A stretch of DNA of 64,000 bases. Source: Cylindrotheca closterium. Its lineage: Eukaryota > Bacillariophyta > Bacillariophyceae > Bacillariales > Bacillariaceae. A model generated the notes under the pieces. The model ran no database searches. It worked only from the letters and a program-made list of their open reading frames with translations, and was not told the origin of the DNA. Below, piece by piece: positions 1 through 62,441 of the stretch. The position numbers and the translations under genes were made by a program. The number at the start of each line of letters is the position of its first letter. The first letter of the stretch is position 1. Location of the stretch: the NCBI GenBank assembly GCA_933822405.4, contig CAKOGP040000224.1:187023-251022 (forward strand). The letters run 5' to 3'.

Positions 1-444
1 CATCTCGTTACTGCTTCCATCGAGCGATGCATTGACGCTGTTATGGACGAACAAGCCGCGCAATGGGAGTCAGACGTTGATGACTTTGATCGCTTGGCAG
101 CAATCTCTGCAGAAGTATCAAAGTTCAGTGTCAACTATGCTTTGGAGCAAGCTGTGGCAGATGAACAAGAAGCACACAGAATGTACAAGGCTATGGAGCA
201 AAAGATCAACTTGCAACAGAAGCTCAAGTCGAGAGACTCCTCGAAGAAGAATGTACTTGATTCGAGTGATCATACATCCATCTGCTCTGATCTCAGTCAT
301 CCTGAGGCAGAATCAATCCGTTCCACAAGAGACTCCTTGTCTCAAGCTAAGGGAAACAATAAGGCAACGAAAGCAATTTCGAGACGCCTCACCAACGCTC
401 TCACGATGCCCAAGATCGTTGGTCTTGCCAGTCGCGCTGCATGA
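1..444 (+). CDS. VMDEQ-family protein, tandem copy 1 (5' end outside window)
   Basis: Partial gene: the reading frame is open from base 1, so the N-terminal half (V.F / WY / RGLE blocks) lies upstream of the window. What is seen is the second half of the core: a CIDAVMDEQ..QW block at once, then RLAAISAEVSKF, and the ADEQEAHRMY block. It is followed by a Ser-rich acidic stretch DSSDHTSICSDLSHPEAES and a short basic tail ending in LTNALTMPKIVG. This order is shared with the next three genes downstream, in the same orientation, so it is the first visible copy of a tandem array. The family has no name I recognise; no catalytic motif or membrane segment is visible. A function cannot be assigned. 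The stop is TGA at 442-444. Confidence that it is a real coding sequence is high because the protein sequence, not only the DNA, is conserved between copies. Confidence 0.85.
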   Translation, partial: HLVTASIERCIDAVMDEQAAQWESDVDDFDRLAAISAEVSKFSVNYALEQAVADEQEAHRMYKAMEQKINLQQKLKSRDSSKKNVLDSSDHTSICSDLSHPEAESIRSTRDSLSQAKGNNKATKAISRRLTNALTMPKIVGLASRAA

Positions 445-1496
445 TAACTCTTCAATGCTCTCCAAACGAGACGCATGTACATAAAGGGGACGACATTTTT
501 CTGCAGCCTGGTGCATTATGCATGACACCTGCAGCTACATTTTTATACACTTGTTACACGCAACGTCCAACAATAATGGACTTTCTAAGTGATAAATGAC
601 AATTTTGCATTTGAGATCTATCAATACCATCTCCTTCTAGAACCTAGTTGTACCCCAGCTTGTGGTTTGCTTTATGATACGATCTGAAGACGCCTACCCT
701 GCAGAACATGTTGTCTGTATCGTACACATCTTTCATCTCTTTGTGTTGCGCTTTATGAACTCACTCACCTCCTTGTCACTAACCCATCAGGAATGCCCCG
801 CAGGCAGGAGTGCCAGATGGATTTATCGTACCGGACCATAAAGTAAAATGTGGCTGCGTGGGATGAGGTCTGCCTGTCGGAATGATTGATTCAGAAAGCC
901 ATTCAATGCTTTGATACTACAGTATACTGTATTTTACCAGAAAGATGTAATACACCTGTCATCAGTGCAAAGTCTCAAAGCCTTCCATCAGCTTGAAACG
1001 TCTTTTCGTTCGTTCATCACGGCCCGCAATACCGGAAGTGAGGATGGCGGCCAGATTACATTGCACAGCGAATCGCGACCATCGCGTATGTACCTGTGAT
1101 GAATTGCGAGCGTCTTCTTCGTTCATGTTCTCGATGTGTTAACGATGTGTTAAAACGTTTCGCACACCCAATCTACAGGTTAGTAGCCTGCGAACCTTTC
1201 GTCGCGGCAGTTTTGGAGGAACAACAGTTTTTTCAACCGTACACATGAAACGCGGTACTTGTCTTCGTTCATGACTGAAACAACGATAGGAATTTGAGAA
1301 AATTTGATTACGTGCTACCAAAATGGTTTTCTCAGTTTGCGCACTTATAGAACATGAAGAAAGTTTTGGTAGCGTTTTAAACGTAAAGAAGGCCGATTTG
1401 AAATCAATCATTGCAGTAGGGATCCCACCCTCACATTCAGATCCAACAAGCAAAGTACACAAAAAATTCAGCACCAAACACAACCAAACGGCAAAC
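445..1496. other. Spacer between tandem copies 1 and 2
   Basis: No gene seen. About 70-90 bases after the stop lies GCATTATGCATGACACCTG (from 512), a 3' flank element recurring after copies 2 and 3. The stretch 590-690 resembles the 3' flank of copy 2 (TTTGAGATCT, CTCCT.CTAGAA, CCCAGCTT.TG), as expected if whole gene units were duplicated. The last ~50 bases match the 5' leaders of copies 3 and 4. Confidence 0.6.
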
Positions 1497-2162
1497 ATGA
1501 ATGCACGAACGAAGGCAATTGAACGAAGAGTCAAGTTCCTTCCAGAGAATGATACCGTGTGGAAGATCAGCAATCTAGAGGAGTACACCGAAGAAGAGAT
1601 CCTAAACAGTTGGTACACTCAGCCCGAGTTCAAGAAGATCACTAGGAGGAGCTACAACCACGCTCTCAGATGGGAGTCTGGCGAAACATCAATGCCTGAC
1701 TCTTTCCATCGAGGACTGGAAGTCTTCACAATGGAAGGCGAGGAGATCATTACCGCTTCTATCGAACAGTGCATTGACGCTGTTATGGATGAGCAAGAAG
1801 CCCAATGGGACAAAGACATTGATGACTTTGATCGTTTGGCAGCTGTCTCTAAAGAAGTATCAAGATTCAGCACCGCCTATGCTTTGGAGCTAGCCCGGGC
1901 AGATGAAGATGAAGCACAAAGAATGTACACGCGTATGGAACAGAAGATTAAGTCAAAAGGCTCGAAACTCGATTCAAGCGATCACACGTCTATCTGCTCT
2001 GATCTAAGTCATCCCGAGGCAGACTCAGTCCATTCAAGAGGATCCTTATCTGAAAGTATAGAAAACAGGAGGGGAACGAAGACTAGATCCAAACGCCTCA
2101 CCAAGGCTCTCAAGTTGTCCAAGAACAAGTTCCCTTGTCGCACTAGTCGCACAGCATGCTAA
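1497..2162 (+). CDS. VMDEQ-family protein, tandem copy 2
   Basis: A 221-residue protein with the full family core. In order: RRVKFLPENDTVWKI (about residues 9-23), EEYTEEEI then SWYTQPEF (about 27-43), HRGLEVF (near 76), QCIDAVMDEQEAQW (near 98), and ADEDEAQRMY (near 137). The C-terminal part carries LDSSDHTSICSDLSHPEADS and a basic tail KRLTKALKLSK. The frame is open further upstream, but I chose ATG 1497 because the leader just before it (ACAA..CAAACATGAATG pattern) is shared with copies 3 and 4 and the protein then aligns from its first residues. Soluble, charged, probably partly helical; no signal peptide or membrane segment. Function unknown. Lies head-to-tail with the neighbouring copies. 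Confidence 0.85.
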   Translation: MNARTKAIERRVKFLPENDTVWKISNLEEYTEEEILNSWYTQPEFKKITRRSYNHALRWESGETSMPDSFHRGLEVFTMEGEEIITASIEQCIDAVMDEQEAQWDKDIDDFDRLAAVSKEVSRFSTAYALELARADEDEAQRMYTRMEQKIKSKGSKLDSSDHTSICSDLSHPEADSVHSRGSLSESIENRRGTKTRSKRLTKALKLSKNKFPCRTSRTAC

Positions 2163-3057: not shown

Positions 3058-3738
3058 ATGAATTCAAGCGAAAGACGAGTCCAGTTCCTTCCAGCCCATG
3101 ATTCGGTATTGGAGATCCCGTCACTGGGGGAGTACACTGAACAGGATATCATGAACTGCTGGTACACGAAGCCAGAGTTCAGAAAAATCGCTAAGCGATG
3201 CCAGAAACAAGCCCGTCGATGGGAGTCTGGAAAACCATCAATGAACGAATCTTGTCCTCGAGGACTAGAAAGCTTCATGCAGGAAGACGGGGAGATTACT
3301 ACGGCTTCCGTCGAACAATGTATTGACGCTGTAATGGATGAGCAAGAAGTCCAATGGGACAAAGAAGTCGATGACTACGACCGCTTGGCAGCAGTCTCTG
3401 AAGAAGTATCGAGATTCAGCGTCAGTTGGGCTCTAGAGAAAGCCCGGACAGATGAAAAAGAAGCGCAAAGAATATACAAACATATGGAACAGAAATACAA
3501 GGTGACCAAGTTGAAATGCGAGTCTCCAACAAGCCTTTCGAAATCAATAGAGGATGGACGAGATGACCATACGTCTATGTGTTCTGATCTGAGCCATCCT
3601 GGTGCAGAATCGCCCCGGCTAACAGAACACCAAAAGACGAAAGGAGCCTCCAAGCCTCCACTAAAAATGCCCAAGCTCCCTCGTCACGTCAGCGTCACAA
3701 TATATAGAAAGGTGTCTCCAATGATTTGTAGCAGATGA
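3058..3738 (+). CDS. VMDEQ-family protein, tandem copy 3
   Basis: A 226-residue family member. Core blocks in order: RRVQFLPAHDSVLEI, GEYTEQDI, CWYTKPEF, ARRWESGK, PRGLESF, QCIDAVMDEQEVQW, EVSRFSVSWALEKA and TDEKEAQRIY. The acidic Ser motif appears as DDHTSMCSDLSHPGAES, and the tail is basic (KPPLKMPKLPRHVS). An ATG seven codons upstream (3037) is in frame; I prefer 3058 because the AACATCAAAAATGAATTCA context matches the start of copies 2 and 4. Compared with copies 2 and 4 the linker before the acidic motif is changed and the C-terminus is extended by a short unrelated stretch (YRKVSPMICSR). No known domain, no signal peptide. Function unknown. Confidence 0.85.
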   Translation: MNSSERRVQFLPAHDSVLEIPSLGEYTEQDIMNCWYTKPEFRKIAKRCQKQARRWESGKPSMNESCPRGLESFMQEDGEITTASVEQCIDAVMDEQEVQWDKEVDDYDRLAAVSEEVSRFSVSWALEKARTDEKEAQRIYKHMEQKYKVTKLKCESPTSLSKSIEDGRDDHTSMCSDLSHPGAESPRLTEHQKTKGASKPPLKMPKLPRHVSVTIYRKVSPMICSR

Positions 3739-4798: not shown

Positions 4799-5479
4799 AT
4801 GAGTACAAACAAGAGAAGAGTCCAATTCAATCCATCGCATGATTCTGTATTGGAAATAAGTAACCGGGAGGAATACACCGAACAAGAGATCCTGAATTAC
4901 TGGTACACCAAGCCCGAGTTCAAAGCGATCACCACGCGATGCTACAAGCAAGCTAGTCGATGGGAGTCTGGCAAGTCATCAAAGAATGAATCTTTCCATC
5001 GAGGACTAGAAGGATTCACACAGGAAGCCGAGGAGATCACTACTGCTTCCATCGAACAATGCATTGACTCTGTAATGGATGAGCAAGACGCCCAATGGGA
5101 GGAAGAAGTCGATGACTGCGATCGCTTGGCAGCTGTCTCCAAAGAAGTATCAAGATTCAGTGTCGCCTGGGCTTTGGAGAAAGCCATAGCAGATGAGCAA
5201 GACGCCCAAAACATATACAGGCGTATGGAACAGAAAACCAAGTTGCAATTGAAGACCAAGTCCTCGAAAGGCTCGAGTGGTCTCGATTCAAGTGATCACA
5301 CATCGATCTGCTCTGATCTAAGTCATCCCGAGGCAGACTCGGTCCGTTCGAGAGAATCCTCATCTGGAACGAGAGTAAACAAGAAGGGAACGCAATCCAT
5401 AACCAGACGCGTCACCAAGGCTCTCAAGATGCCCAAGCTCGCTGTTGGTGCTAGTCCATTGCTTGGTGTTTCCAGGTGA
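4799..5479 (+). CDS. VMDEQ-family protein, tandem copy 4
   Basis: A 226-residue family member and the last of the head-to-tail array. Blocks: RRVQFNPSHDSVLEI, EEYTEQEI, YWYTKPEF, SRWESGK, HRGLEGF, QCIDSVMDEQDAQW, EVSRFSVAWALEKA, ADEQDAQNIYRRME. The tail holds LDSSDHTSICSDLSHPEADS followed by RRVTKALKMPKLAVG. Closest to copy 2 in the tail and to copy 3 in the core. Frame is open 27 codons upstream, but the ATG at 4799 sits in the same AAACATCAAACATGA leader as the other copies. No signal peptide, membrane span or catalytic signature. Function unknown. Confidence 0.85.
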   Translation: MSTNKRRVQFNPSHDSVLEISNREEYTEQEILNYWYTKPEFKAITTRCYKQASRWESGKSSKNESFHRGLEGFTQEAEEITTASIEQCIDSVMDEQDAQWEEEVDDCDRLAAVSKEVSRFSVAWALEKAIADEQDAQNIYRRMEQKTKLQLKTKSSKGSSGLDSSDHTSICSDLSHPEADSVRSRESSSGTRVNKKGTQSITRRVTKALKMPKLAVGASPLLGVSR

Positions 5480-6759: not shown

Positions 6760-8962
6760 CTAACAGAAAACGGACGACCCTCCTTTGCTGTCCTTGGCAA
6801 AGCACCCGTGGATTCCGTGTGGAACACCAGATCGCATCCAAATTTTGGCAACGGGACCTTCCTTCAAGTCTTTCTCCAAATCGAACACAGCCAGGAAGTT
6901 CTTTTGCTTGGCCGCGTCCCGCACCACGCCCAAGAGGAATGCTGCATCTTCGTCATTGGGATCACTTCCATCCTTGGGAATAATAATGGGCTCGGTCGTA
7001 AAATACCGTGTTCCAAACCAATAGGCATCGACGTCCTCATTTGGTGCTCCAGGTTGCAACTGTTCAGTGCTGCCGCTTTCTACCTTCAGTCGAACGTATC
7101 CATTGGGCGGTGTACTGTCACCAATCACATTGGAGACTGTTCCATAGACATTCTCGCATTTCTTGGTGTTGAAATTGGGGTGCACTAGCATGTGTTCTGT
7201 ACAAATATTATGGCATCCTGGTGCAATGTCAAGAGAGACAGTTCGTTTTTCCTTTGGATCAATCTCGAGTCTCCAGAGAAAGGTTGGTGGAATTTGACGA
7301 AATTCGGGACAGAATCCACCCCATGCTCCCAAAAAGTCTTTGGAATCGGATGGAGGCCATCCGGAAAAGTAGGTGACCAAGTTCCCAGTCTCTTCATCTT
7401 CGTATCCATGCGAAAAGTGGATAGAGAAACATGCTGGAACGTCGACCACAAATGGTTCAAACTGATTTTTGGAGGATGGCCGTGGAAAGATCCAAGCTTT
7501 GACGTTTTTGCGACCATCCATGGCCAAGCTGGCAGCGGGGCCTTTGAGATTCAGCAAGAATGGGAGCTGGTTCATTTCGAGTGCATTGATCATGAAAATG
7601 ATGGAATTCTCAGTAATGGCCATATCGTGTGGTGCCAAGGAACAGTTTGGAATCTCAAAGGTGGAGGTTGCCAATCGGTCAAAGTTTTCTTCCGCCCACT
7701 CGGTGAATGTTACCTCCAAACTTTTACTCATTGGCAGTTGTGACCAAGACCAGCCGACCAAGTTGCCATTTGGACATCGTTGTGGGTGTGCCGTGTGCTA
7801 TGATACATACATTGAACGCAAAGGGCAAGAAGGTGAGTATAATTGGCGAAAAAGCTGAAACGTAAGAGCTGTGGTGCATGTACTTACGGCAGATCCACCA
7901 ATAAAGTCTGGCTCAAATTCTTCCAAATCTTTGCCTAGCTTGACCGGTAATGCGGCTTTCAATGCCCCGCCCATGGTATCTTCTCCCATCGCTTCCAAGG
8001 TAGTTGGATCCAAACGAAAGGGTAATCCTGCTTCAAACAGGGCCAGCACCTTTCCTCCAAACGAAATGATCTGAGTATTTGCGGAATCTAATCAGAAGTA
8101 CACGAGTTGTGAGAAATGAACATCGACCCTACCACAACATAACGCTGTCAGCAAGACTGACTGACTTACTCTTGATATCAGTATTAAAGGCTCCACCAAC
8201 AAATTTAGAAATGGCCGAAGGCTCGGAGGGATCCGTGTTGAGCCCATTCTTTTCCCTCGAGTCTAACCCTTCGAAACATGGCCCGGTCCCAAAAGTGCCA
8301 CGATAGAGAAACTTCTTGGCCTTTTGCTCTTCTTCGAACTGAGGGGTCGATACGAAGCGTGATAGGAACTTGACCTTTCGTTGGCCTGAACTATCTGGTG
8401 CTGGTATGTCAATTTTGTAAACCAGTGCATCGGCATCGAGCACATGTTGGACTCGTTCTCCATTCACCCCGAATTTGCCAGGTCCATTACGATAGAGAGT
8501 TCCTTGCAATTCATCTGGTAGCTTTCCTTCCACTTCGCACTCGTACTCGCTGTACCCGGTATCACTATCAATCAAATCGGGATCACTTGCTGGTGATTCG
8601 TAGGTGTACCAATTCTCTCGCCAGTCCGATTCAATGCTTAAACCTTTGCCCAATTCTTCTTGAGATTCTTTCGGATGGATATTCATTTCCATAGCTTCAG
8701 TCAATTCAGACGTTAAGGGTCGAGTTTGTGGATGGAATGTAGAAGAGGTGATTCTCCAATATTCCGACGACGATTGGCTCTTTGGCTTGTTGTTATTGGA
8801 TGATGATTCTTCATCATTCGTTTCAGCAACTGCTTCTCCTTCTTTTTGATCCACAATAGTAGACTTTATTAAGGTGAGCTGACAGCGAGGACTCTGAGAA
8901 GGCAGAAGTGCATCAGCTCCAATTACTCCAGCGATGAGGGCGAGTGCTATAGACCGCTTCAT
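6760..8962 (-). CDS. Carotenoid cleavage dioxygenase (RPE65/CCD family)
   Basis: Three exons on the minus strand: 8962-8170, 8087-7888, 7797-6760, with introns of 82 and 90 bp (GTAAGT donors, TTAG and ATAG acceptors). The joined frame gives 676 residues. Members of this family use a non-haem Fe(II) held by four His to cleave carotenoid or apocarotenoid double bonds. Here the four are in AHP (about residue 335, right after the second splice), SLAPHDMAIT (about 388), SIHFSHGYED (about 458-461) and VPHGIHGCF (about 661, near the C-terminus as usual). Other signatures: YRNGPGKF, ISFGGKVLALFEAG, NLVGWSW. The N-terminus (MKRSIALALIAGVIGADALL) is a signal peptide and may be the first part of a plastid bipartite leader with L in place of the usual F at the cleavage site. 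Substrate cannot be read from the sequence. Confidence 0.92.
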
Positions 8963-31314: not shown

Positions 31315-31336
31315 CTAGGCCGCTGGAGTTATCAGC
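31295..31336. repeat. 21-bp tandem duplication over the stop codon
   Basis: TAGGCCGCTGGAGTGATCAG+C (31295-31315) and TAGGCCGCTGGAGTTATCAG+C (31316-31336) differ by one base. On the minus strand this is seven codons ending in a stop, so the end of the coding sequence (LITPAA, stop) is repeated once beyond the active stop. Confidence 0.85.
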
Positions 31337-31887
31337 AGGGGGGTACTCAGATTTTCCATATCAGAAGTAGCAAAGTAACTCTTGACCGTTGCCCTATCCA
31401 TGGATGTAGGTGAAGGAGGAACACACAACAAGTTATAGTCAGAGTCCATCTTCATGTATGCACCGAATGCTGCTCGCTCATCTTTCTTGGCTGTAATGTA
31501 TGCAATGATGGCACCCTTTGCTGATGTTCTTCGGCATGTCTCTGCAATTGCCCAAGCATCTTCAATTCCTTCTTCAAACTGTCTCTCTTGTTCATCCATC
31601 ACAGAATCAATGTGCAAATCCCTCAAAGCACCTTGTTCATCCCCTGAACTAGGAAGAAATGCCTCAATGCCTCGGGTCTCGCTGACACTCATTCCTTCTG
31701 TGACAGCTCCAAGCCACAGGCTCATATTCTGATGGTATTCAGCCGAGAAGTAGCAGTTCTTTCTCTCTCGTATTGTATATTCACTTCGAGACATGACAAC
31801 AAAGATCTCTACGGTCTCATTGAAACTCACTGATGTCTTGCGTCTGGGTGTGTGTGGTGTGTTGTTCTTGCAGAAGCATCCGGGCAT
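31315..31887 (-). CDS. VMDEQ-family protein, diverged member (31 kb)
   Basis: A 190-residue protein. It keeps the order of the family core but in diverged form: TSVSFNETVEIFVV, SRSEYTIRERKNCYFSAEYH (Y-F in place of W-Y), SETRGIEAF for RGLE, LHIDSVMDEQERQFEEG, then SAKGAIIAYITAKKDERAAF and GAYMKMD. The N-terminus MPGCFCKNNTPHTPRRK is short and Cys-containing. There is no long Ser/Lys-rich tail; the C-terminus ends SDMENLSTPLLITPAA. The VMDEQ..Q block and RG.E anchor the assignment. Its stop codon lies in a 21-bp tandem duplication. Function unknown. Confidence 0.75.
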   Translation of the reverse strand: MPGCFCKNNTPHTPRRKTSVSFNETVEIFVVMSRSEYTIRERKNCYFSAEYHQNMSLWLGAVTEGMSVSETRGIEAFLPSSGDEQGALRDLHIDSVMDEQERQFEEGIEDAWAIAETCRRTSAKGAIIAYITAKKDERAAFGAYMKMDSDYNLLCVPPSPTSMDRATVKSYFATSDMENLSTPLLITPAA

Positions 31888-33088: not shown

Positions 33089-34501
33089 ATGGCGATGGTC
33101 GATGAATCATCCTCGCAAGCCCCTCAGCCGTGCATTGCCGCTTACAGCGGGTTCAGCAAATCTTTGCGGACAGTCACAGAAGACACAATGAGTCTGGATG
33201 AGGACGAAAACCTGCCAGGCGTTTCGCAACACACAGAATTGTGTGCTAGCAGTAATGAGGACGACGACACATGTTCAATTGCCACTCATGAAGACGATAT
33301 ATACGATGATATCCATGATAGTGCTAGAACAAGAACTAGAAGTAGAACTAGGCGAATTGCATTTGCACCCATGGCCACAAGACACCCCATCATTTCAAGA
33401 GCCGAGTACTCACGAGATGAAGTGGAGGAATCCTGGTGGACCCCAAAACAACGGGAGGTCCTGAATAAGGCACACAACAAAACTGTAGATCGATTAGAGA
33501 CAGGCCTTAAAGAGAAGAAATCCGCTCCTTATCGAGGGCTGGAAAAGATTGCCATCGATGGGTATCACCGAATGGTGGAAGCCAAAAATATGTATGTTGA
33601 TACAGTCATGGACGAGCAACAACGCCAATGGAATGCAGGTGACCTGGACTTGGACTGGGAAGTCATCGCCAACCTTACCCATCAAATTTCGAGAAGAAGT
33701 ACGCAGGAAGCCCTCATGTACGCTTTGTACGATGAAAATGAGGCTCGAGAAGCCTATCAAACCATAAAGGTCAAGGACCTGTTCGAAATGTCCATTTCCG
33801 ATATTGGTGTCGATATCTCTGAACGCACTGATCGGTCTGAAATGGACTACCTAGAAGGATCTGCCCTGCTCGACAATGACCTCGACTACCACTCGGACGA
33901 AGACGTGGGCAAGCTGAAACGGCAAGAGTCATCCATTCGAATCACCAAGGAGCGAGGTCTCAATAAGTCACCCAAGAAATCCAAAAAGAAGAAAAGGAGG
34001 GACAGCAAAAAGAAAAAGAAAACAAAATCCAAGAAACAAGAGGAGGAACCATCCGAATCTGAAGCAAACGATGAAGAGGGAGAGCGATCCGAAGTCGACA
34101 TGCTCATTCAAGATTTTGCCGATGCGTTGGGGGAGTCCACTCGGTCAACTCGCACCGAAGGAGGGGAATCAAAGAAGAAGAAAAGTAAGAGCAGAAGCAA
34201 GACTGTTAGCAGTGACAGTAGATCCAAGAAGAAGAAGAAGAAGGAAACGAAAAATAAGCCATCGGATCTAGACATCTCTCCCGAATCGAACGATTCTTCT
34301 GATGGCTTCTGGTCACTATCTGCACCTTCTTTGTTTGACTCAAAACCCACGACTTCTTCGCCTTCCAAGAAGAAGAAGAAATCCAAAAAGGACTCAACAG
34401 GTTTGAAATTAAAAGCTGATTCACTTCGAGTCAGTACCAAGAAGAACAACCCTGTCACGCAACTTGCTGCCACATGTCTTCACCGCATAAGAGCTCCATG
34501 A
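33089..34501 (+). CDS. VMDEQ-family protein with Lys/Ser-rich tail (33 kb)
   Basis: A 470-residue protein starting at ACCATGG. About 85 residues of acidic, low-complexity sequence precede the core, which reads RRIAFAPMATRHPIISRAEY (about 88-107), ESWWTPKQREVL, a TVDRLETGLKEKKS linker, PYRGLEKIA, MYVDTVMDEQQRQW (about 170-183), RRSTQEALMYALYDENEARE and AYQTIKV. The rest is a long tail with an acidic Ser/Asp segment and lysine runs (KKSKKKKRRDSKKKK, SRSKKKKKKETK) and the motif SSDGFWSLSAPS followed by KPTTSSPSKKKKKSKK. That last motif is shared with the next gene, so the two are a closer pair. Lysine runs could direct it to the nucleus (inference). Function unknown. Confidence 0.82.
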   Translation: MAMVDESSSQAPQPCIAAYSGFSKSLRTVTEDTMSLDEDENLPGVSQHTELCASSNEDDDTCSIATHEDDIYDDIHDSARTRTRSRTRRIAFAPMATRHPIISRAEYSRDEVEESWWTPKQREVLNKAHNKTVDRLETGLKEKKSAPYRGLEKIAIDGYHRMVEAKNMYVDTVMDEQQRQWNAGDLDLDWEVIANLTHQISRRSTQEALMYALYDENEAREAYQTIKVKDLFEMSISDIGVDISERTDRSEMDYLEGSALLDNDLDYHSDEDVGKLKRQESSIRITKERGLNKSPKKSKKKKRRDSKKKKKTKSKKQEEEPSESEANDEEGERSEVDMLIQDFADALGESTRSTRTEGGESKKKKSKSRSKTVSSDSRSKKKKKKETKNKPSDLDISPESNDSSDGFWSLSAPSLFDSKPTTSSPSKKKKKSKKDSTGLKLKADSLRVSTKKNNPVTQLAATCLHRIRAP

Positions 34502-35282: not shown

Positions 35283-36221
35283 ATGACAATGCGCACACAG
35301 ATGGAAACCAATAGAGCAATTACCGATTATGATGAACCTCTAGAGAAGCCTGTTGTTTCCCAAGATGAAAATGATTGCACAGAATCCACAGACTCATTCA
35401 CAGAGTTTGCTGGTGAAAGCATATCTCATTATTCCAACAACCCCGAATCCAAACACCGCATCACCTTTGCTCCCGAGCTAGAGGTGTGTGAGATTCCACA
35501 CCGAGAAGACATGACCGATGAGGAATACCATCTCGCTTTCTATTCGAAAAATGAAATTGCCTTTATGAATGAAGAGCAAAATGAAACAGCGGATCGCATT
35601 GAAGCTGGTAAGAAAGCCAAGAAATCAACGACTTACAGGGGGCTAGAAGCTTGGACGCAAATGGGACAACATGAAATGAACCAAAGGATCTTCTCCTGTG
35701 TTGATTCTGTCCTTGATGAACAGGACAAGCAGTGGACCAAGGGGCGCAACAGCACTCGGCGAATCGCCAAAGCTTCCAAAGGCCTTACCAAGACCAGCCG
35801 AAAAATTGCCTTGGAGCTTGCCAAGCAAGATGAAAAGGAAGCTCGTAAGGTTTATGAGGAACACTTGGATGAACACGATAAAGCGGCGCAAGAAGAACCA
35901 TTCCACCTTCCTCTCGTTGCTGTGATCACCAACAGCACCATTATGAAGAAATCTAAGAAGTACACTCCAGACTCTCTCAGGTCTCTGAACGCCAGCAGTC
36001 ATTCGATGGATCTTGGTCTTTCAATGCACTCTCACGATTCTTGTGACAGTGGCTTATGGTCACTCTCTTCCAGTTCCATCTTGGAAAAACCTACCACGCC
36101 AAAGAAGAAAAGAAAATCCAAGAAGAAGTCTGCCGCAAGAGAGGGCAAGGCTGAAAAAGAAACACCTGCCAAGACTACCGCATCACGACGAAAGAAGATT
36201 AACAAAGTGATGGTTGTCTAA
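35283..36221 (+). CDS. VMDEQ-family protein with Lys-rich tail (35 kb)
   Basis: A 312-residue protein. An acidic N-terminal stretch leads to the core: HRITFAPELEVCEIPHREDM (about 58-77), TDEEYHLAFYSKNEIAFM (F-Y for W-Y), TADRIEAGKKAKKSTTYRGL with E-A-W, FSCVDSVLDEQDKQW (V-L-D-E-Q variant), TSRKIALELAKQDEKEARKV and YEE. The tail has SGLWSLSSSSILEKPTTPKK followed by KRKSKKKSA, closely like the tail of the preceding gene (GFWSLSAPS, KPTTSSPSKKKKKSKK). Same strand and 780 bases from that gene, so they look like a local duplication that has diverged strongly in the core but kept the tail motif. No membrane segment. Function unknown. Confidence 0.82.
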   Translation: MTMRTQMETNRAITDYDEPLEKPVVSQDENDCTESTDSFTEFAGESISHYSNNPESKHRITFAPELEVCEIPHREDMTDEEYHLAFYSKNEIAFMNEEQNETADRIEAGKKAKKSTTYRGLEAWTQMGQHEMNQRIFSCVDSVLDEQDKQWTKGRNSTRRIAKASKGLTKTSRKIALELAKQDEKEARKVYEEHLDEHDKAAQEEPFHLPLVAVITNSTIMKKSKKYTPDSLRSLNASSHSMDLGLSMHSHDSCDSGLWSLSSSSILEKPTTPKKKRKSKKKSAAREGKAEKETPAKTTASRRKKINKVMVV

Positions 36222-36348: not shown

Positions 36349-38268
36349 CTACAAGGCAACGAGGGTGCGTTTGACCTCAGAGGTATCCATTTCTGCAAAC
36401 TCATCGCTCAATCCAGATGATTGCGATGGTTCCATCTTGGTGATGATTGCGATCGCCTTCTTCATCCCCTTGACCTTTTTCTTGTCCGTTTTGGTGCTTT
36501 TGGCCTTCTTCTTTCGCTTGTTCTTCTTCTTGGAATCCTGAAGTTTTCGCTTCACCTTTTGGTAAATTCCAGTAGTACTACTGGAATCTTTCTTGGAAAA
36601 GATCTTGGTTTTCCGGGTCTTCTTTTTTTGCACAGACACGGTCGTGGGTGGAGCAAGTCGTTCTTCGTACTCAATGGCACCAAACTCCGATTCGGAATCG
36701 ATGCTTCCGGATGATACAACACTAAGAATATCGCTCATTTCACCCGAACCATGATTGCTTGCTATTCTCATTGGCATTGATAATGATCTATCGTGCGAGC
36801 GATTGCTGTTGTTTTCCTGTTGTTGTTGTTGTTGTTCTGGGCCATGGTCGCTTGTGATTCTCAATGGCATTGGGAGTGAAGTCAATGTCCTCTTTGCAGT
36901 GTTCACGGGACTCCAGCGTCCATTCTGCATCTGATTAGTGCCTCCTTCTTGCTGTTCCTTGCCCTTGAGACCAGACCAAGTTCTCTTGGGGGAGGCGGGA
37001 CTCCATCGGCTTTCCACAACAGCAGAGTTCTTTCGAGCTCGATGCTTCTTCTTGATGGACTTGGCTTTTGGCGAGACAACCATTGGACTCAATTGGTAGA
37101 CTTCTTCTTGTATTTTTCGGCAGTGCCCAGTCTCGGATCGCATCGAATGATCCAAAAGATCATTTTCCGTAGATGAGTCATCGCCCAAGTAGAATGGAAT
37201 GGCTTCCAGGGCATCCAATTGTGCCCTCTGGATGGCATCAATGGTGCAGGCTCGGGAATGTGCATAGGAAGCTTGAGCCAGCGTGTCGGCATCGTCAATG
37301 TCTGCGTCCCACTGGACTTCTTGCTCGTCCATGACAGCATCCACAAGAGTATGAATGCGTGCTTCACTTGCCTCGTCATCGGGTTTGCAAGACTCCCGTA
37401 GCAAGCCCTCAGCGGGCAAGCAGGCCATGAGTGTCAGTGGCAACGAGGTCGATCTTGTGTTTGTGGTAGAGCTTGATGAGGAGGATTCTTCTGATGGCAA
37501 GATGTGATCCATTACCATGGGAAGTGGGCCCTGTTCTTGCATCTTGGCTGCTCGTTTGGCTCTGGCATCTTCCTTGTAGCGAGCCACTACCATGGCAGCC
37601 ATTTCTTCAGGTTTGTACCAAACCGTTCCAATCTCCTCCAACGAGAAGTCTTCTCGGTTTGGAATGGTATGAATCTCATTGTGTTGGCGCACAAAGACCA
37701 CCCGTTTCGTCCCAGCAGGCACCATCATATCATCACACGAAGATGCGGAATAAGAGCAGCAGGATGCAGAGGACGAGGAGGTAACCGAGTAGGCCTTGGA
37801 GACAATGGAAGAGAGACTGTCATCATCACTGTCCTCGTCAGGAACAACATTATCGTGGACAATAGTTTCGGCATCTTGAAAGGCTGCCGTTTCCAGGGCC
37901 GACAAGACCCTGATTTGCGACATGATACTATCGTCATCATCACTGTCATCGCTGTCGTTTTCATGGACCATCGTGTCGTCCACCAATTTGACTTGTGAGT
38001 CGAGGCTGTGATCATCATCATGATCATTGCATTGGAAGCAACCTTCCAAGGATGGGAGACGAAGTTTGGTATCGTCATCATCTTCAGCACTCAACTGGCT
38101 CATTCTGCGAACGAGGGGCAGCATTATGGCGTCTGCTGCTTGTGAGGATACTTTAGCACTGCAGGAGTGAGGTCTCATGGCAACTTCTTGTGAGTCTGTG
38201 GAAAGATCTCTGGAATGTTGCCCTTGCAGGTTATGATGAGTGCGATTTGCAAACTGTTGGGGCACCAT
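36349..38268 (-). CDS. VMDEQ-family protein, long variant without RGLE (36-38 kb)
   Basis: About 639 residues from the ATG at 38268 (MVPQQFANRTHHNLQ). An acidic, Asp/Ser-rich N-terminal third precedes the core: TKRVVFVRQHNEIHTIPNRE, DFSLEEIGTVWYKPEEMAAM, then a Ser-rich insert where RGLE would be (only AEGLL remains). The second half is intact: IHTLVDAVMDEQEVQWDADI, IDAIQRAQLDALEAIPFY. The C-terminal half is disordered: VSPKAKSIKKKHRARK, repeated MPLRITSDHG / MPMRIASNHG units, glutamine runs, and a long Lys-rich end (KRKLQDSKKKNKRKKKAKST). It is convergent with the 35-kb member (128 bases between stops). Upstream lie two copies of CGATAACACTT also found before the 33-kb member. Function unknown. 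Confidence 0.8.
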   Translation of the reverse strand: MVPQQFANRTHHNLQGQHSRDLSTDSQEVAMRPHSCSAKVSSQAADAIMLPLVRRMSQLSAEDDDDTKLRLPSLEGCFQCNDHDDDHSLDSQVKLVDDTMVHENDSDDSDDDDSIMSQIRVLSALETAAFQDAETIVHDNVVPDEDSDDDSLSSIVSKAYSVTSSSSASCCSYSASSCDDMMVPAGTKRVVFVRQHNEIHTIPNREDFSLEEIGTVWYKPEEMAAMVVARYKEDARAKRAAKMQEQGPLPMVMDHILPSEESSSSSSTTNTRSTSLPLTLMACLPAEGLLRESCKPDDEASEARIHTLVDAVMDEQEVQWDADIDDADTLAQASYAHSRACTIDAIQRAQLDALEAIPFYLGDDSSTENDLLDHSMRSETGHCRKIQEEVYQLSPMVVSPKAKSIKKKHRARKNSAVVESRWSPASPKRTWSGLKGKEQQEGGTNQMQNGRWSPVNTAKRTLTSLPMPLRITSDHGPEQQQQQQENNSNRSHDRSLSMPMRIASNHGSGEMSDILSVVSSGSIDSESEFGAIEYEERLAPPTTVSVQKKKTRKTKIFSKKDSSSTTGIYQKVKRKLQDSKKKNKRKKKAKSTKTDKKKVKGMKKAIAIITKMEPSQSSGLSDEFAEMDTSEVKRTLVAL

Positions 38269-42464: not shown

Positions 42465-42865
42465 TACGTTCTTGTTATTATGCTACCGGTATTCGAAATC
42501 AGGAGTGGCTTATTTTTTTTCTTCCATTACAATTTCCCAAGATTTCAGGGAGTCGGAGTAATCAAAGCCAGAAAATTCCAAACCGAAAACGGAAGATTGT
42601 ATGATTGTCGATTATTGATGAATTTTCCCAGCTCTTCTACACGGGTCAAGTACGTACTGGTCGTGGTATCACCTAGTTTAGGCCCAAATGAGGTACATAC
42701 GAAAAGAGTGCGAGTCTGTCATCATCGCTCGAAGAGTCATCGCTCAAAGATACTAGATACGTAGGAAACGTGCAGTCATTTGGGAAACAAGAAGTCAGCC
42801 GATCCTCCATCGTTATATCATCTTCCCTTCTTGCCACTGAAAGTTCGTGGTGCGGACCTTTAGGA
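42465..42865. promoter_or_regulatory. Divergent promoter region (K+ channel / peroxidase fusion)
   Basis: TACCGGTA at 42484, close to the K+ channel ATG. TCATCGCTC(G/A)AAGA occurs twice (42721-42748). The frame of the next gene is open back to 42770 but has no ATG before 42866. Confidence 0.35.
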
Positions 42866-49171: not shown

Positions 49172-52100
49172 TTAGTACGTCCATTCTCCATATAGTCGTC
49201 CCCTTCTTCCTAGCGTCAATCGTTTCGTTACAGCATCAGCAAGGTTTGTCATCCCTCATATCCATGACACCAGCAGCCACGTTCCACCTGGTATAATGGT
49301 GGTCTATCGAATTGTGCTTCTTGTTTGATGTCGACTCAACCTTTGTTGCAGTCATAACCACATTCTTGTTGTCACAAAATATGTGTGTTGGTTCACCTTC
49401 CAAAGGTATTCCAAACATCCTCAATTTGGATCTCAAATGCAAAACAGCTTCAATGCATGATGTTAATGCTATAAATTCCGGACCAAAAGTGCTCGCTTCC
49501 ACCCTGTTTTGTCCTTTACCGTACCATAAAATGGGCGCTCGATTGAAGAAAATCACATGCCCCATATGCGACTTTCGCATCTTCTTGTTGGCAATATGCA
49601 AAGCATCCACCCATACAGTACTCCCTACTCTTCGTTCCCTCGTTTTTGGATCAGAGTGTAACATTTCCTCTTTTGCGTCTTGATAGCATGCTTGGAAATC
49701 CTCTTGTGAAGATCCTAATTTGTAGTGATCAAAGTTCCGCACCCTCGAATCATAGTACATATCCTCAATGCTTGCTCCTCTTTTTGTATCAAGGATGTTG
49801 GATACTTCAGTCGTTCATTGCTCCATGTGCCCTTCTCTTGGGGCCGTTTGATATTGGCTCAAAAGTAATACTTCCAATAAGATGTCAACTCGTCCAATCT
49901 CCGTCGTCCATCGTAACATCCCAATCAACTCTTGGAAGTAGGTATGATCATTTTTTCCTATTTCACTTGATCCGTCCATCTCTGGTTTGTAAGCACTGGT
50001 CATTGACTCAATCCGTCCATCTCCAGTTTGTGAACACTGGTCATTTGCGTCAGTGCATTCTTTGGTAGCTTCAGACTTGTGTTGTCTTTCAACGTTTCTT
50101 TAAGATTCTTGACGGCTGCCACGACATAGTCATAACTAGGCATCTTCCACATACCAAATCCGTCCAAAGTCTTCTTTTGTAACCTGGCTCCTAGATAGCT
50201 CTCTAGTGGTTCAATCTTCTCTTTCTTGAATTTGAACGCCCTTCCAATTCATTCCATCACTTCCTTGGCTTTCATCGACATACAGATGATGTCACCGACG
50301 TAACAAAGGATATATTCGTAATATTCCCCCCCATCAGGCTTCACAGCTGCCCTCATCCAAACGTCAGGATTGGCACAATGCCTTTCTTACAATGAAGACG
50401 TTTCCTTCTTTGTCTCCAAACTCAGGTCCTGCTACCATGTAGTACCTCTCAATTGCTGGTGCAGTGAGGAAAGCGTTCTGGATATCTGCACATTGCAAGT
50501 CCACTCTGTTTAGTGTTGCTATCATTACTAGTATTCTTCTTCATTTCCATTTAAGTCGCGTCCTGCCATAATGTGTCCCGATTCTCTTTGTCAATTTGTC
50601 CAGATTCTCTTTGTCAATTTTGATGGCTTCTTTGATCAATTTTGGGATACGTATCCTGTACTTGTGTGTAAGTTCCTGGTAGTTAGATTTGACTTTCCCA
50701 AGGAATCGCGCGCGTTTTTAGACAACGGTCAAAAGCAGGTTCGCTTGGGTGCCCTTTCCTATTGCATAGTCTGCCTGGCCTCTTCTTAAACCAATCTCCA
50801 TGTTGACGTAATTTTGTGCGTTTATGTTGTCAGCTTCCGTAGTCCCCTGGAGCAGTCATGCCATCATCGACCCTGGAGCATGCCGTCATCAACGTCCTAA
50901 GCCTCGATCAACTTGTTGAAGCTGCATTTGGATTCTGTGTCTTCCAAGTCAAGATCAAACATCAATTGTGGCGTCATCTCATTCAAACATCAATTGTGGC
51001 GTCATCTCATTCTCCCCCCAACTGATTGCGCCAATATTTGCCTGGGTGATTCCATGCTTCTTTGAAGTTCTTTGGTCCTTTGTTCTCCGCCATATTTTCC
51101 ATCACTTGTAATGCGAGATCTGGCCACTGTAAAATCCGATTCAGCTTCATGTTTGCAACCTTGCTTTTGGCATTATTGTTGAATAGTGGTCCATGTTGAC
51201 CATCTGAGAAATCAATTTCTTCTTCTTCCGTTGGCTGGTGCTTCTCTTGTTCAAACACAAGTCAATGTTTCCCTTCCTGGTTCGGAATTTGCAGTTGCCA
51301 ATCTTGTCTCAGTTCAAGTTCAAAGTGTAGGCTGCGTCTCATGCCATGTCTGTAGATCTTTCTGCCATCTAGTAGTTGGTGCTGCGGTTGGTGTCGCCAG
51401 TGTTGCCGTTGTGCGTGTGTGTGTGTGGTGTTGCTGCCGGATTGAGTTGCATTGCTGGTGCTGTTGCGGTCTGGGTTTGGTGCTGTTGCTTTCGAAAAGT
51501 TCGCTTTTGCATTGTTTGCTGTAGTTGCTGGTGCTGGTGGTGCTAGCCCAATATCATCGTTGTTTGATTCCAATAGTATCTCTTGCGTCGATTGTAATGT
51601 GTTGGTCGTTCAGTGGGTACTGAAGTTGGTTCACTGGCACATCCGCAAATCCTGCGTTTCCTGTTTGTTCAATTTGTTGCAAGGACCTCTCTCCATCGAC
51701 CATTGCCTACCTCCATTGACCATTGCCGCTTGCACCGTGCATCATTCGTTCATTCATTGCATGATAGGATCCAATTGCCTCAGTTTGGTTTCATTGGATC
51801 TTGGGTCATCTACTGGATCTTCGTGAGCCACTGAGATTTTTCCTAGTTGAACAGTGCTTGAATTCCATGGCACTTTGCTGGCTGCTTATATCGATTGAAG
51901 GCATATCGCAAGTCAATCTCTTCCGCTTGACTGTCGATTGCGTCCGCCCATTACAGAAGCTCCAGCAGTTCCCATAGTCACTTGTGATATCTGTGTAGCT
52001 GCTGCTCCTTCAGCAGGAACGTTGCTGGATCATAGTAGTGATGCTACTTCTTCTCGTAATTCAGGCGGTTGCGTTTTCATAGTCCGTCTTGTTTGTCTTG

Positions 52101-54830: not shown

Positions 54831-57403
54831 CTATTCTATTGAAGACCAAAATGCGGCAAGACACACAGCCAAAGGCATTAGAAGTGCGAGTGTGTTGGCA
54901 CCAGAATCACCGCCTGGTGGTGCGGTGGTGGGTGCTGTTACCGGTGTGGTAGTAGGAGTCGTTACCGGTGCATCTGTGGGGGGTGCTACTACCGGTGCGT
55001 CGGTAGGAGTCGTTGCCGGTGCATCAGTGGGAGCTACAACCGGTGATGGGACAGAAGGAGTTGTTGCTGGTGCATCTGTGGGCGCTGGTACCGGTGGTGG
55101 GTTGGTTGGAGTTGTTACTGGTGCATCGGTAGGCGGTGTCACTGGCGGTAGCGTCGCATCCTCAATGACAATGAGTGTTCCAGACCCGACAATGGGATCG
55201 TACACCAAGGTATTGGCGAAGCGAGGAAATCGGAACACAAAGAACGCGCCTTCGGCAGGTGTTTGCTCGACTCGTGGAAAGCCTGGTGGCATGGCATCAA
55301 TGACGCCATCAATTTCCACTTGGTTCGTAAGAAGGATCGGTACGCCACCACCCAAGTCAAAGATTGACCCGTCTGCTTCATCTTGCTCTGGAGCCTCCGC
55401 ACTTCCTTTCACTGTCATTGCAATATCAACATAAGCAGCTGACCCAGAATCGGCACAAATGCCAGTTTCATCTTCATCACAGAATGACCAGTTTGACAAG
55501 TTGACATTGAATTTGACGTCTATGTATATGTATGACAAAGCAATGGAAGTGACAAAATTAGAACGGCCAGTGCCAAAATTCACACATAGCAATAATACGT
55601 ACCGCCTTCCGTAACATCAAAGACTTCTCCGGAAGGAGTGGTGATTGTTCCATCTTCTAGTATCTTGTAGACAATCAGCTCCATAGATCCCACTCCTACA
55701 ATATCAGCAGAAAAGGTTGCCTTTCTGGACAGGACACCCAAGAAGACGCCTTGTGATTGGGAAACTTTAAAGCCTTGATTTTGAACATCGACAAAACTGA
55801 ACGGAATTTCGCTACCATCTTCGGCAACCTCAAAGTAATAGTTGAGAGCAACCTCGACAGCATTTGGATCGGATTCACCCAATCCTTCATTCTTAAGCTT
55901 GAACGCAGGAGAACCGTATTCAATATCCATTCTCACCGTTGCCGATGCAACGCCACACAGAAAAATGTCCGCTGCATTGCAAGTCTGTTCGTCAGGGCAC
56001 CACAGACAAGACGCTTCCGCCTCGCAATCTGGACCAAAGATCAATGTGGTACAATCGACAGCTCCGACGTTTACGTCCTCGTCAGCATCACCGTCCTCAT
56101 CCTCATCATCGCAACCATCTTCGGCCTTTTTGCACTTGGAATTGCCTTCACACCATAGACATCCTTCAACACCGGTACAACCATCCGTAGTGGATTGATC
56201 CTTGCATGGATTTCCTCTGATTCCTTCTTCACCATCATCACATTCGTCTTCAGCGTTCTTGCATTTCAAGTTGCCTGGGCACCAACGGCAGTTGGAAGTT
56301 TCTCCCGAGGTACAATCGGCATCGGTGGTGTATTGTTTGCAGAGATTGCCAGGAGGCAATCCCGCAGACGCGCAGGTTCCACCACGTGCTGAGGTACATA
56401 CGTTGCCTTCGGCACACCAGAGACAGTCTTCCGAAGTGGAGCAGCCAGTTTCTTCCAAACCGTTGCATGGACTGCTGCGACCTTGTCCAGGGCACTCGGC
56501 TTCATCCAAACGGCACTGGGCAGACGATCCACCACAGAAAAAGCATCCGGCATCGGAACATCCAGTTTCGTCTCCTTTGAAAGTTTTGCACTCGCTGCTT
56601 CCGAATGCAGTGCCCGCTCCGGGAGGACATTTCGCTTCCGTTGCTCTACAGAGTCCCTTGTCTTCGCAGAAAAAGCATCCTGCGTCTTCACAGGCAGTTG
56701 CGTCACGGATGGGGTTGCATTTGATATTGTCTTCGAGTCCATTCGCAACACCATTGAATCCAGGACAGCGCTGTTCCGAGATTCGGCACTTGCTTTTGTT
56801 GGTACAGAAGAAACAGCCAGATTCTTCACAGGATCCTTGAGCCTTGATGGGATTGCAAAGTCCATTGGTGACAGAACCATCACCTACTGGTTCGTCTCCA
56901 TCGGCATCCGTTTCTTCGTCTTCATCAGGAGCAGGACAACGTTCTTCTGAGACACGGCACTTCATGGCTTCAGCACAATAGAAACAGCCGATTTCTTCGC
57001 AGAATGCTTGGTCCTGAATGGGGTTGCAAGTACCTTCATCCGAGGCATTAGGACAGCGGTCTTCTGAGACTCGACACTGTTGTTTGTCACAAAAGAAACA
57101 ACCCTGTGTTTCACACGCCGTTTGGTCCTTGATGGGATTACAGGTGCCATTGCTGACAATGGGCATTTGCTCCTCGTTGTCTTCTTCTTCTTCCGTACCT
57201 CCTCCTCCTCCTCCATTGTTACCGCCGCCGCCTCCAGGACAGTTGGATTCCGCGACTCGACATTTGCTGGAGGAAGGACAAAAGAAACAACCTGCACTTG
57301 AACAAGATGTTTCGTCCTTGATAGGGTTACAGGTCCCGTTGTTTTGGGCCTCGGCAGTGCAAAACAGTGCTAGGAAAAGAAGGATGGTGCTTGTTCTCAT
57401 CAT
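54831..57403 (-). CDS. GPI-type surface protein with ten Cys-rich (PSI-like) repeats
   Basis: Two exons, 57403-55603 and 55519-54831, around an 83-bp intron (GTACGT donor, ACATAG acceptor); 829 residues. A signal peptide (MMRTSTILLFLALFCTAEAQ) is followed by ten modules of about 35-50 residues. Six have the form CNPIKDQTACETQGCFFCD then CRVSEDRCP; four later ones have GCLWCEGNSKCKKAEDGC. The spacing C..C....GC.(F/W)C....C......C resembles plexin/PSI modules, which are extracellular. Acidic and Gly-rich linkers join them. Next comes a beta-rich region (about 520-700, with FEVAEDGSEIPFSFVDVQNQ and KFNVNLSNWSFCDEDETG), then a Pro/Thr/Ala/Asp repeat stalk (PTDAPVTTPT units). The end GANTLALLMPLAVCLAAFWS is a hydrophobic tail preceded by small residues, as for GPI attachment. 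Likely a cell-wall or surface protein. Ligand unknown. Confidence 0.85.
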
Positions 57404-58340
57404 GATTGTGAAATAATACGAGAAGGGAGAAGAGGAAATATATGACAAGATGTCATCGATCTGGTATTCAACCAACAGTTGTTGGATCTTGGATCTTGGT
57501 TACGATTCAATATTTGTGTGCATCCTCGCTTTTGTTTAAAGACGATTGACTCGTGGTTAAATATTTGTTGGTACAGTCTGTCGCTTCGTGATTGTGGCGG
57601 GATTTTACTTAGTGTTCATATTTAGTCTTGCCGTTCACATCGAGGAGTGAGTCAAACTTGGATACGGGATTCTAGTCCAAGTGGTCTATTTCAATGATCA
57701 TCGTACCAGGTACATACCTACTTCTCAAAGAAGAAGAATGATACCGGTCTGTAAATTCTCCATTGATTTTTTGTTGCGTACTAGTAGTACAAAAGTACGA
57801 TTCCGAGACAGAAAACTACCGTAACGTCTTTGGGTAGCTGTATCATGGACTAAAGTTCCATGATGACACGAACGCAGCTTTCATTATTGGCATCTTCCCT
57901 TTCTCGGTCGCCAAGATTGAGAGACATCATCTCCGGTCCTGATCAAGCGCTTTTTTCAAAAGATTCGAGTACTGTATGTGGGGTAGAGAGCTCGACGAGT
58001 GCAGACAAAAGCTTCATTCCATGCTAACCTAATGGGCGCAGTCATACGGCAATGGAATTCTGCTCGTACAATCGCCTGTGTGTCTCTTTATGTAACTTGC
58101 GGGTACAGCTATCGAGGAGCATTTTAAAATGCCCTATTTTGGTCACATTTCCACATTGGATCAATTTGGAAACAGTCAAAAGAACAGAACCAATTTTTTA
58201 CATCTAATGAATAGAATGATTCAATTCACCGAAGTCATTTTTATTTGCGTATTTCGACGCAAAATGCCGGCTGGTTGAAAATCTAAACTCTCACAATTTT
58301 ACAGACCAAGACTATAGAGAAACCAAAATAATTTTACAAG
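57404..58340. other. Gap between surface protein and family member
   Basis: Promoters of both divergent genes. No gene or repeat identified. Confidence 0.4.
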
Positions 58341-58862
58341 ATGGTAGCTTGTACACACGCAAAACATCATCCATTTTTCAACTCCTCTTACGACAAGATC
58401 GAGTTTGATTTCGACGATCTCAAGTCTCCTACCGGTACACCACAAAAAGCCGAGAAGAAAAGTGTCCGATTCGAAAGGCACGATCGGGTCCATGAGATCC
58501 CCCACATAAATGATCTGAGCGACGAAGAGATAGATGGTGTTTGGATGCATCCTGATGACTTCAAGACTATCCGAAGAGAATGCCAGGCTGTCATTCTTAT
58601 CATTGAACATGATAGCGATCTCATTGAAGGCGCTGAGCTCCGCGGGCTCGAACATCACATGGCCAAACAAAAAAGGGAAGCCCAACAAATCCAGGAGCTC
58701 CTCTACGACACTGTTGATAGACTTCAGAAGTACGGGGACGAGTCCTCAACGGATGTATCAGACATGCTGGCATGTATGTGCCAGAAGATCTCCAAGAGAC
58801 CTGAAGCATTTGCGAGGAAAATTGCAGCTGAAGACGAAGAGGAAGCAAAGAACAAGGTCTGA
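58341..58862 (+). CDS. VMDEQ-family relative, short variant (58 kb)
   Basis: A 173-residue protein that keeps the first half of the core well: KKSVRFERHDRVHEIPHIND (about 38-57), LSDEEIDGVWMHPDDFKTIR (W-M for W-Y), GAELRGLEHHMAKQKREAQQ. In the second half VMDEQ is replaced by QELLYDTVDRLQ and the last block survives as AFARKIAAEDEEEAKNKV, where it stops. It therefore represents a separate branch with RGLEHH and no DEQ. Another frame after the stop (to 59052, ending LQLLTADCNIILHLHK) could be a lost or spliced C-terminus, but no splice signal was clear. No tail, signal peptide or membrane helix. TACCGGTA occurs inside this coding sequence (58430). Function unknown. Confidence 0.75.
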   Translation: MVACTHAKHHPFFNSSYDKIEFDFDDLKSPTGTPQKAEKKSVRFERHDRVHEIPHINDLSDEEIDGVWMHPDDFKTIRRECQAVILIIEHDSDLIEGAELRGLEHHMAKQKREAQQIQELLYDTVDRLQKYGDESSTDVSDMLACMCQKISKRPEAFARKIAAEDEEEAKNKV

Positions 58863-61562: not shown

Positions 61563-62441
61563 ATGGCTCCTCTCATGCGTGAAGAACAACAACAAGAATC
61601 ACAACAACCGCAAGAGCAGCTAGCCAGCGATCGCTTCTCCAATTGTAGTAATGATTCCGATAGCTCTCCCTCTTCGTCTCATCGAAGAGTGCGCATTCGC
61701 TTCAATCATACGCCACAAGTGGAAACCATTGAAAGCAAGGACGACTTTACTCCTTCCGAATTGAGTGCCTCTTGGTACTCTGGTGAAGAGAAGCGTGCCA
61801 TGTACGAAGACTACGAGAAGATTGTCATGCGCATGGAAGCTGGCAGAAGACCCAAGAAGAACACCACTTACCGCGGACTCGAGAACTTTTCCGAGACCAA
61901 CTCGGCCCAATTGGATGAGATTGTTCATGCTTGCATTGATGCAGTCATGGATGACCAAGATCGTCAATGGGCTGAGAATGGTAACGAGGCTGACTGGGAT
62001 TCCTTCCGCGAAGTGTCGCTTCAGGTTTCTCTTCAGTCTGCGTCTCTTGCGTACAAGATGGCCGAGTACGATGAACGTGAAGCCCGCAAGGCTTACATTG
62101 CCATGGCCAAGGAAGAATTTGAACGCCAACAAGGAAAGGAGGTCCAACAAGATGATGCCTCTGTCGGCACTGAAGTCACTGAGGTTACTACCTCTACCAT
62201 GGCTCAAGATGTCAAGAGCAACCACCACAAGATTGTTTCTCCACTAAAACTTGGAGGACGCAGCAAAAAGTCGTCCAAGGCAACCAACAAGAATGGCAAG
62301 AACCGACCACCCAAGGCTCGCAGTTCCGGAAGTCGCAAGACTTTGGGAGACGCCCTTGAGAATCTGAACAAGAAGAAGGCTGTCTACAATGATAAATTGA
62401 GAGATCGCGAATTCCAACCCAAAGTCTTGAGAGTGAGATAA
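61563..62441 (+). CDS. VMDEQ-family protein (61 kb)
   Basis: 292 residues from ATG 61563 (AACAAACAATGGCTCC); the frame is open upstream but this ATG has the best context. After a Gln/Ser-rich start the core reads RVRIRFNHTPQVETIESKDD (about 44-63), FTPSELSASWYSGEEKRAMY, MRMEAGRRPKKNTTYRGLEN, VHACIDAVMDDQDRQW (D-D-Q variant, about 121-136), LQSASLAYKMAEYDEREARK and AYIAMAKEEF. The tail is Thr/Ser-rich then basic (KNGKNRPPKARSSGSRKTLG), ending with a charged helix ALENLNKKKAVYNDKLRDRE. The linker RRPKKNTTYRGLE is nearly the same as KKAKKSTTYRGLE in the 35-kb member, so these two branches are close. No signal or membrane segment. Function unknown. Confidence 0.83.
   Translation: MAPLMREEQQQESQQPQEQLASDRFSNCSNDSDSSPSSSHRRVRIRFNHTPQVETIESKDDFTPSELSASWYSGEEKRAMYEDYEKIVMRMEAGRRPKKNTTYRGLENFSETNSAQLDEIVHACIDAVMDDQDRQWAENGNEADWDSFREVSLQVSLQSASLAYKMAEYDEREARKAYIAMAKEEFERQQGKEVQQDDASVGTEVTEVTTSTMAQDVKSNHHKIVSPLKLGGRSKKSSKATNKNGKNRPPKARSSGSRKTLGDALENLNKKKAVYNDKLRDREFQPKVLRVR

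Follow-up and report, generated by a model that had tools for sequence, protein, structure and literature searches.

A putative family of PP1-targeting subunits with an RVxF-type arm and a predicted four-helix domain in the diatom Cylindrotheca closterium

Introduction

The specificity of the phosphatase PP1 comes from its partners, which in animals amount to about two hundred mostly unrelated proteins. The known ones that dock through an RVxF site, such as NIPP1, ZAP3 and PNUTS, are mostly without kinship to each other, and KNL1, which also has a SILK motif, acts as a kinetochore scaffold. The RVxF dock has been described as [K/R]-X0-1-[V/I/L]-X-[F/W], where X is not P, often with preceding basic residues and with a phi-phi pair 5-8 residues after it (PMC10731240). 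Tandem duplication and unannotated gene families are common in the Seminavis robusta genome, and the expanded families named in the relevant part of that genome description are LRR, cyclase, HSF and others, the arm/RGLE family described below not being among those named there (PMC7335047).

Here, we analysed a window of 64,000 nucleotides (C24:187023-251022) from the Cylindrotheca closterium assembly, which comprises 47.6 Mb in 572 contigs. Judging from sequence, we estimate a probability of about 0.55 that ten genes in this window belong to a large family of diatom proteins that serve as PP1-targeting (regulatory) subunits, presumably by binding PP1.

Results

A sequence-only reading of the window had named ten positions carrying genes with a common, ordered core, and open reading frames were present at all ten. 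A family profile, seeded with eight window cores and refined by repeated searches of the window and of the fetched loci, retained, at E <= 1e-4, 87 of the 1,923 ORFs from six-frame translation, including all ten window genes, which are thus homologous by profile. The weakest pieces were the truncated gene at 1-444 (E 4e-16) and, next, the gene at 36349 (E 2e-19), these values coming from a final model trained on the same rows that it scores. The first gene is merely cut by the window edge, its frame starting at C24:186654, 369 bases to the left (L010). The genes and their RVxF-type sites are given below; genes rest on an open reading frame and the family profile, those with a model also on AlphaFold2 (AF2), and sites called RVxF on the sequence pattern.

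1..444, plus strand: family gene 1, 3′ part only, its arm (SRRVQF) lying left of the window
1497..2162, plus strand: family gene 2
1524..1538, plus strand: RVxF site RRVKF of gene 2
3058..3738, plus strand: family gene 3
3073..3087, plus strand: RVxF site RRVQF of gene 3
4799..5479, plus strand: family gene 4
4814..4828, plus strand: RVxF site RRVQF of gene 4
31315..31887, minus strand: family gene 5, with a shortened linker and RGIE
31822..31839, minus strand: RVxF-like KTSVSF of gene 5, its basic residue one position too distant for the strict pattern
33089..34501, plus strand: family gene 6, with a long Lys/Ser-rich tail
33350..33364, plus strand: RVxF site RRIAF of gene 6
35283..36221, plus strand: family gene 7
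35454..35468, plus strand: RVxF site HRITF of gene 7
36349..38268, minus strand: family gene 8, core split by an insert and without RGLE
37693..37707, minus strand: RVxF site KRVVF of gene 8
58341..58862, plus strand: family gene 9 (AF2 model m543ff7d2cda9)
58458..58472, plus strand: RVxF site KSVRF of gene 9
61563..62441, plus strand: family gene 10 (AF2 model ma5aa90969bab)
61689..61703, plus strand: RVxF site VRIRF of gene 10

Homology and the order of the core elements held across the ten genes, but three of them lack or replace an element that the sequence-only reading had assigned to all. The core of 31315 is short of about 7 residues behind the WY position and has RGIE instead of RGLE; that of 36349 is interrupted by a long low-complexity insert and lacks RGLE, and for this reason the profile matched it in two halves; and 58341 has VDRLQ in place of VMDEQ. 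The WY position also varies, being WW in 33089, FY in 35283 and YF in 31315. An eleventh member, sister to the left-edge tandem set, lies outside the window, about 2.6 kb beyond its left end (L009; C24:183579-184424, minus strand).

The view that the family is an unnamed one agreed with the domain searches. No Pfam family reached its curated cut-off in the ten window proteins, and 30 members gave scattered single weak Pfam matches (best E 0.003 among the 25 families listed out of 29) and only one weak NCBIfam match (E 0.0024). No model of the PPP1R15 group turned up when Pfam matches were taken to E 10 for the ten window proteins and to E 1 for 53 arms. When the model of 61563 was compared with the PDB by Foldseek, none of 17 matches reached E <= 0.001, which is not proof of a new fold.

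The first core element, (V/I).F, bears the signature of a PP1-docking RVxF site, a feature that the sequence-only reading had missed. We aligned this element at 86 sites, 85 of them different. The arm follows the pattern [RK]-x(0,1)-[VI]-x-F, a small residue and then alternating hydrophobics, and so reads as a PP1 RVxF site at the level of sequence. Among the 85 sites, K/R occupied positions -3, -2 and -1 in 52, 66 and 52% of cases, compared with 15% overall, while D/E were found in 0% at -2 and -1. The first anchor was V, I or L in 85/85, the x position was R, T, K, S, H or Q in 76, the second anchor was F in 73 and the residue after it was S, N or A in 64, with hydrophobic peaks at +6, +8, +11 and +12. 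The published pattern fitted 62 of the 85 sites and 23 missed its strict form; where a [VIL]x[FW] core was present, 62 of 74 arm sites fitted versus 38 of 116 other places in the same ORFs (Fisher p 2e-12). Nine of the ten window genes carried the strict pattern, the first of them via its part left of the window. Likewise, in 43 aligned rows of database relatives (8 from the same genome) the first anchor was V/I in all 43, the second was F in 40, and 30 rows presented the strict pattern. A phi-phi pair, under a lenient rule that allowed H in second place, followed 55 of the 85 arm sites versus 32 of 116 control places. At 8-9 residues past the phi-phi place, no column of the 85 sites contained K/R in more than 29%.

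An amplified clade marked by YCTRGLE (L032, L033, L036-L042 and L046) departed from this pattern, the anchor F being replaced by I, M or L in 10 out of 15 sites and kept in 5; outside the clade, F or W was found in 70 of 71. In most copies of this clade the aromatic anchor is gone, and these may no longer target PP1.

The same genome encodes a PP1 whose docking groove is, by its sequence, intact. The Pfam model of the PP1-type N-terminal domain matched four places, one of which, L060, contains a long PP1 frame with 237 out of 285 residues identical to a human PP1 alpha chain. Its groove residues I169, L243, F257, R261, V264, L266, M283, C291 and F293 are unchanged. RVxF groove residues are listed in PMC10731240, which prints I266 at position 266.

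We then compared the arm with proteins of known structure. The PP1 idea preceded these PDB searches, and the arm profiles held no PP1 sequence. A 35-column profile of the N-terminal 35 residues of 53 members gave three matches at E <= 10 among 177,635 distinct PDB sequences, namely CASC5/KNL1 (6czo_B, E 0.15), PPP1R15A/GADD34 (4xpn_B, E 0.33) and a viral non-structural protein (E 0.36). With a 21-column profile of 61 members, GADD34 came first (E 0.11) and KNL1 second (E 0.36), followed by three others at 0.67-0.99; the viral fragment, 2m0a, ranked third or fourth in both lists, and we know of no role for it as a PP1 ligand. We take CASC5 to be KNL1 and 6czo to be a PP1 complex; 4xpn also contains PP1, as it is listed with a PP1 alpha chain. 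Control profiles built from the RGLE part and the last helix of the same 61 members produced 5 and 1 PDB matches, none to a PP1 regulator, and neither the whole-core profiles nor one single-member arm matched a PP1 regulator in the PDB. The E-values of the arm (0.1-0.4) are not significant alone; their weight lies in the fact that two PP1 regulators top both lists.

A weight matrix trained on 65 diatom arm sites served as a separate test. The docking peptides of GADD34, KNL1, NIPP1 and ZAP3 outscored every one of about 40,000 background positions and, when only background places with a [VIL]x[FW] core were considered, every one of about 540. When half of the training set was used, GADD34 and KNL1 kept the top score in 5 out of 5 draws and NIPP1 in 4 out of 5. 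The six-residue LtPNUTS site was outscored by 11 of 41,235 background positions and the viral fragment scored as high as the PP1 peptides, so that the matrix is not specific proof.

AF2 predicted one architecture for two members from different subfamilies, consisting of an arm without secondary structure followed by four helices. In the model of 61563 (93 alignment rows), 134 of 292 residues had a pLDDT of at least 90, the helices spanned residues 64-70, 74-92, 111-139 and 145-196, with a weak helix at 266-274, and the chain ends stood at a pLDDT of about 40-58. In that of 58341 (48 rows), the helices were placed at 61-67, 71-90, 108-135 and 140-172. The helices agree element by element, and not as the unrelated folds that would have spoken against a family, although the two models are not fully independent because each alignment includes members of other subfamilies. 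The V.F element (I45-R46-F47 in 61563 and V42-R43-F44 in 58341) lay ahead of the bundle and in neither helix nor strand. Modelled without a partner, the arm (residues 41-60 of each protein) had pLDDT values of 84 and 93 in 61563 and of 77 and 90 in 58341. This predicted confidence is fairly high, higher than for a floppy arm, as if the arm were packed on its own helices.

Eight single-sequence searches of the C. closterium genome gave 93, 79, 54, 28, 11, 20, 36 and 97 matches at E <= 0.001 out of 135, 125, 106, 75, 48, 71, 120 and 146 candidates scored, respectively. Removing repeats left 141 places, which merge into 134 loci spread over 48 contigs. Scoring was confined to the best candidates, so this count is a minimum. 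The figure includes fragments and frames with stops (e.g. C135:92.8k, C267:75.8k, C223:63.8k and C223:67.6k), and some loci may be haplotype copies. Contig C24 alone carries 16 of the 134 loci, and 81 have a neighbour within 10 kb, against an expected 7 and a maximum of 22 in 1,000 random placements. When the loci were scattered at random over the 47.6 Mb, treated as a single piece, the richest 64 kb held a mean of 2.9 and a maximum of 5 members (1,000 simulations) compared with the 10 observed. The density of members in the window is therefore far above chance. The sequence statistics given here rest on 49 stretches fetched by coordinates, which represent part of the loci. In two loci of contig C223 (L017, 1316-2410, and L018, 1169-2494) the arm and the helical domain are present twice in a single frame; at the sequence level, the whole unit, dock included, is duplicated together.

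Three protein searches yielded 13, 25 and 21 matches from 397, 3,854 and 8,000 scored candidates. The named relatives came only from C. closterium itself and from two MAG proteins of Bacillariaceae sp., in a search of low sensitivity that depends on shared 5-letter words, which limits its reach beyond Bacillariaceae. Four relatives are MMETSP transcripts and are therefore transcribed. The metagenome relative P0015 has two RVxF-like sites in tandem before one helical domain. Among the relatives of 61563 (P0002-P0009), the five sequences compared keep an N-terminal stretch resembling RFSNC.ND(C/S)DS and a tail motif around DDASV.TE.TE, and thus the variable ends are partly conserved within one subfamily.

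The sequence-only reading had attributed the cluster to repeated local duplication and fast change, as in families shaped by selection. The former was supported in part by a tree built from 82 core rows and recomputed with bootstraps under a different model. The four left-edge genes formed a clade with the gene at C24:183.6k and one gene of contig C223 (95% SH-aLRT; 99/93 in the repeat), but 58341 was sister to a C223 gene (98%) and 61563 grouped with genes of contig C135 (93%; 100/93 in the repeat). A single local clade of window members was rejected, as forcing the eight testable rows together cost 390 log-likelihood units (AU p 4e-65). The cluster thus mixes a local burst with old lineages. 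The deep forks are unsure because the rows are short and many branches long. Regarding selection, dN/dS (Nei-Gojobori) was 0.15-0.46 in 14 of 20 paralogue pairs and 0.5-1.23 in the four youngest, and two pairs were saturated in dS. This coarse pairwise test gave no sign of positive selection, with values below 0.5 except in the youngest pairs, and points to purifying selection on the sequences overall, relaxed or unresolved in new copies.

Other genes were also found in the window. At 42770-47490 (plus strand), an animal-type haem peroxidase (Pfam E 1.7e-79) precedes frames in which a membrane part can be recognised by eye and a ferric-reductase NAD-binding Pfam match falls below its cut-off; together they are perhaps one intron-split peroxidase/NADPH-oxidase-like gene. 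At 6760-8962 (minus strand), a carotenoid oxygenase (Pfam RPE65 family) lies in two pieces, probably exons of a single gene. A DDE_Tnp_4 transposase (24182-24853, plus strand, Pfam E 1.4e-12) sits inside the family cluster, and a frame at 49236-49760 (minus strand), without a Pfam match at E 0.001, resembles the RNase H part of a retroelement. The ORF list further showed a short frame (17914-18414, plus strand) that begins like a signal peptide and repeats S/V-rich units containing RRKL, and a Cys-rich frame with many CNPI...C..GCFFC repeats and a signal-like start (55580-57475, minus strand).

Discussion

PP1 targeting is the most economical reading of the family. The N-terminal arm, through its RVxF-type site, would occupy the RVxF groove of the highly conserved PP1 that the alga itself encodes. 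Behind the arm come the four-helix 'RGLE' domain and, after it, a tail that varies from one paralogue to the next. By analogy, the helical domain and the tail may choose the substrate or the place, and gene duplication would have diversified PP1 targeting.

The strongest competing explanation is that the arm acts as a structural strap on the family's four helices, its RVxF likeness being convergence on a simple short motif, and that the domain binds some other partner through its helices and tails. We hold this to be the less probable account, yet one with a substantial claim: AF2 places the arm at pLDDT 77-93 without a partner, the arm runs unbroken into the conserved DYT..E helix start, and an unrelated viral fragment matches the scores of the PP1 peptides. 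A strap, however, leaves several traits of the site unexplained: basic residues at -3 to -1, none that are acidic at -2 or -1, a polar x, and S, N or A following F. Nor does it account for two PP1 regulators leading both arm searches while none emerged with two other parts of the domain.

The basic linker and the Lys-rich tails of several members, such as 33089 and 36349, could instead suggest nuclear or nucleic-acid-binding regulators, in which the basic stretch ahead of V.F and the Lys/Ser-rich tails localise the protein or bind nucleic acid while the helical domain dimerises. This seems improbable to us, given that no DNA- or RNA-binding Pfam model exceeded its cut-off in the ten window proteins, that the tails are not common to different subfamilies, and that conservation falls on V, x, F and the next residue and not on basic residues alone. 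Most improbable of all is that the loci are mostly dispensable duplicates, produced by fast turnover and chance duplication and without a common biochemical role. The fragments and stop-containing frames among the 134 loci and the dN/dS near 1 of the youngest pairs would fit such a history, but all 14 older pairs whose dS could be measured have a dN/dS of 0.15-0.46, the arm and RGLE are conserved across relatives, and four of these come from MMETSP transcripts.

The wider picture that PP1 targeting would give is more tentative and falls slightly short of even odds: some 130 homologous PP1-targeting loci, each with an RVxF arm, an undescribed four-helix domain and a tail of its own, with one clade losing the anchor and being freed for another use. 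If so, we know of no larger expansion of PP1 regulators within a single family. A lineage that copied one homologous module would constitute a natural experiment on the evolution of phosphatase specificity, and a large blank family of a pennate diatom would gain a testable function. Should the arm not bind PP1, these genes would still form a large unnamed diatom family with a predicted four-helix core.

Compared with known systems, the arm resembles GADD34 in its basic stretch, VxF, S and equally spaced hydrophobics (MKARKVRFSEKVTVH versus the consensus krkrrVrFsptvdvr), and it differs in that GADD34 has, to our knowledge, no RGLE helical domain. The docking segment of KNL1/CASC5 (NSRRVSFADTIKVFQTESH), the other leading match of the arm profiles, is similar as well, but SILK ([GS]IL[RK]) lies upstream of the RVxF site in 0 of the 85 diatom sites. 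With the RVxF class of NIPP1, ZAP3 and PNUTS, the diatom arm shares the pattern itself, present at 62 of 85 sites, and the NIPP1 and ZAP3 peptides top the matrix background. The difference from this class is one of kinship: in the diatom, the site would be common to about 130 loci of a single homologous family.
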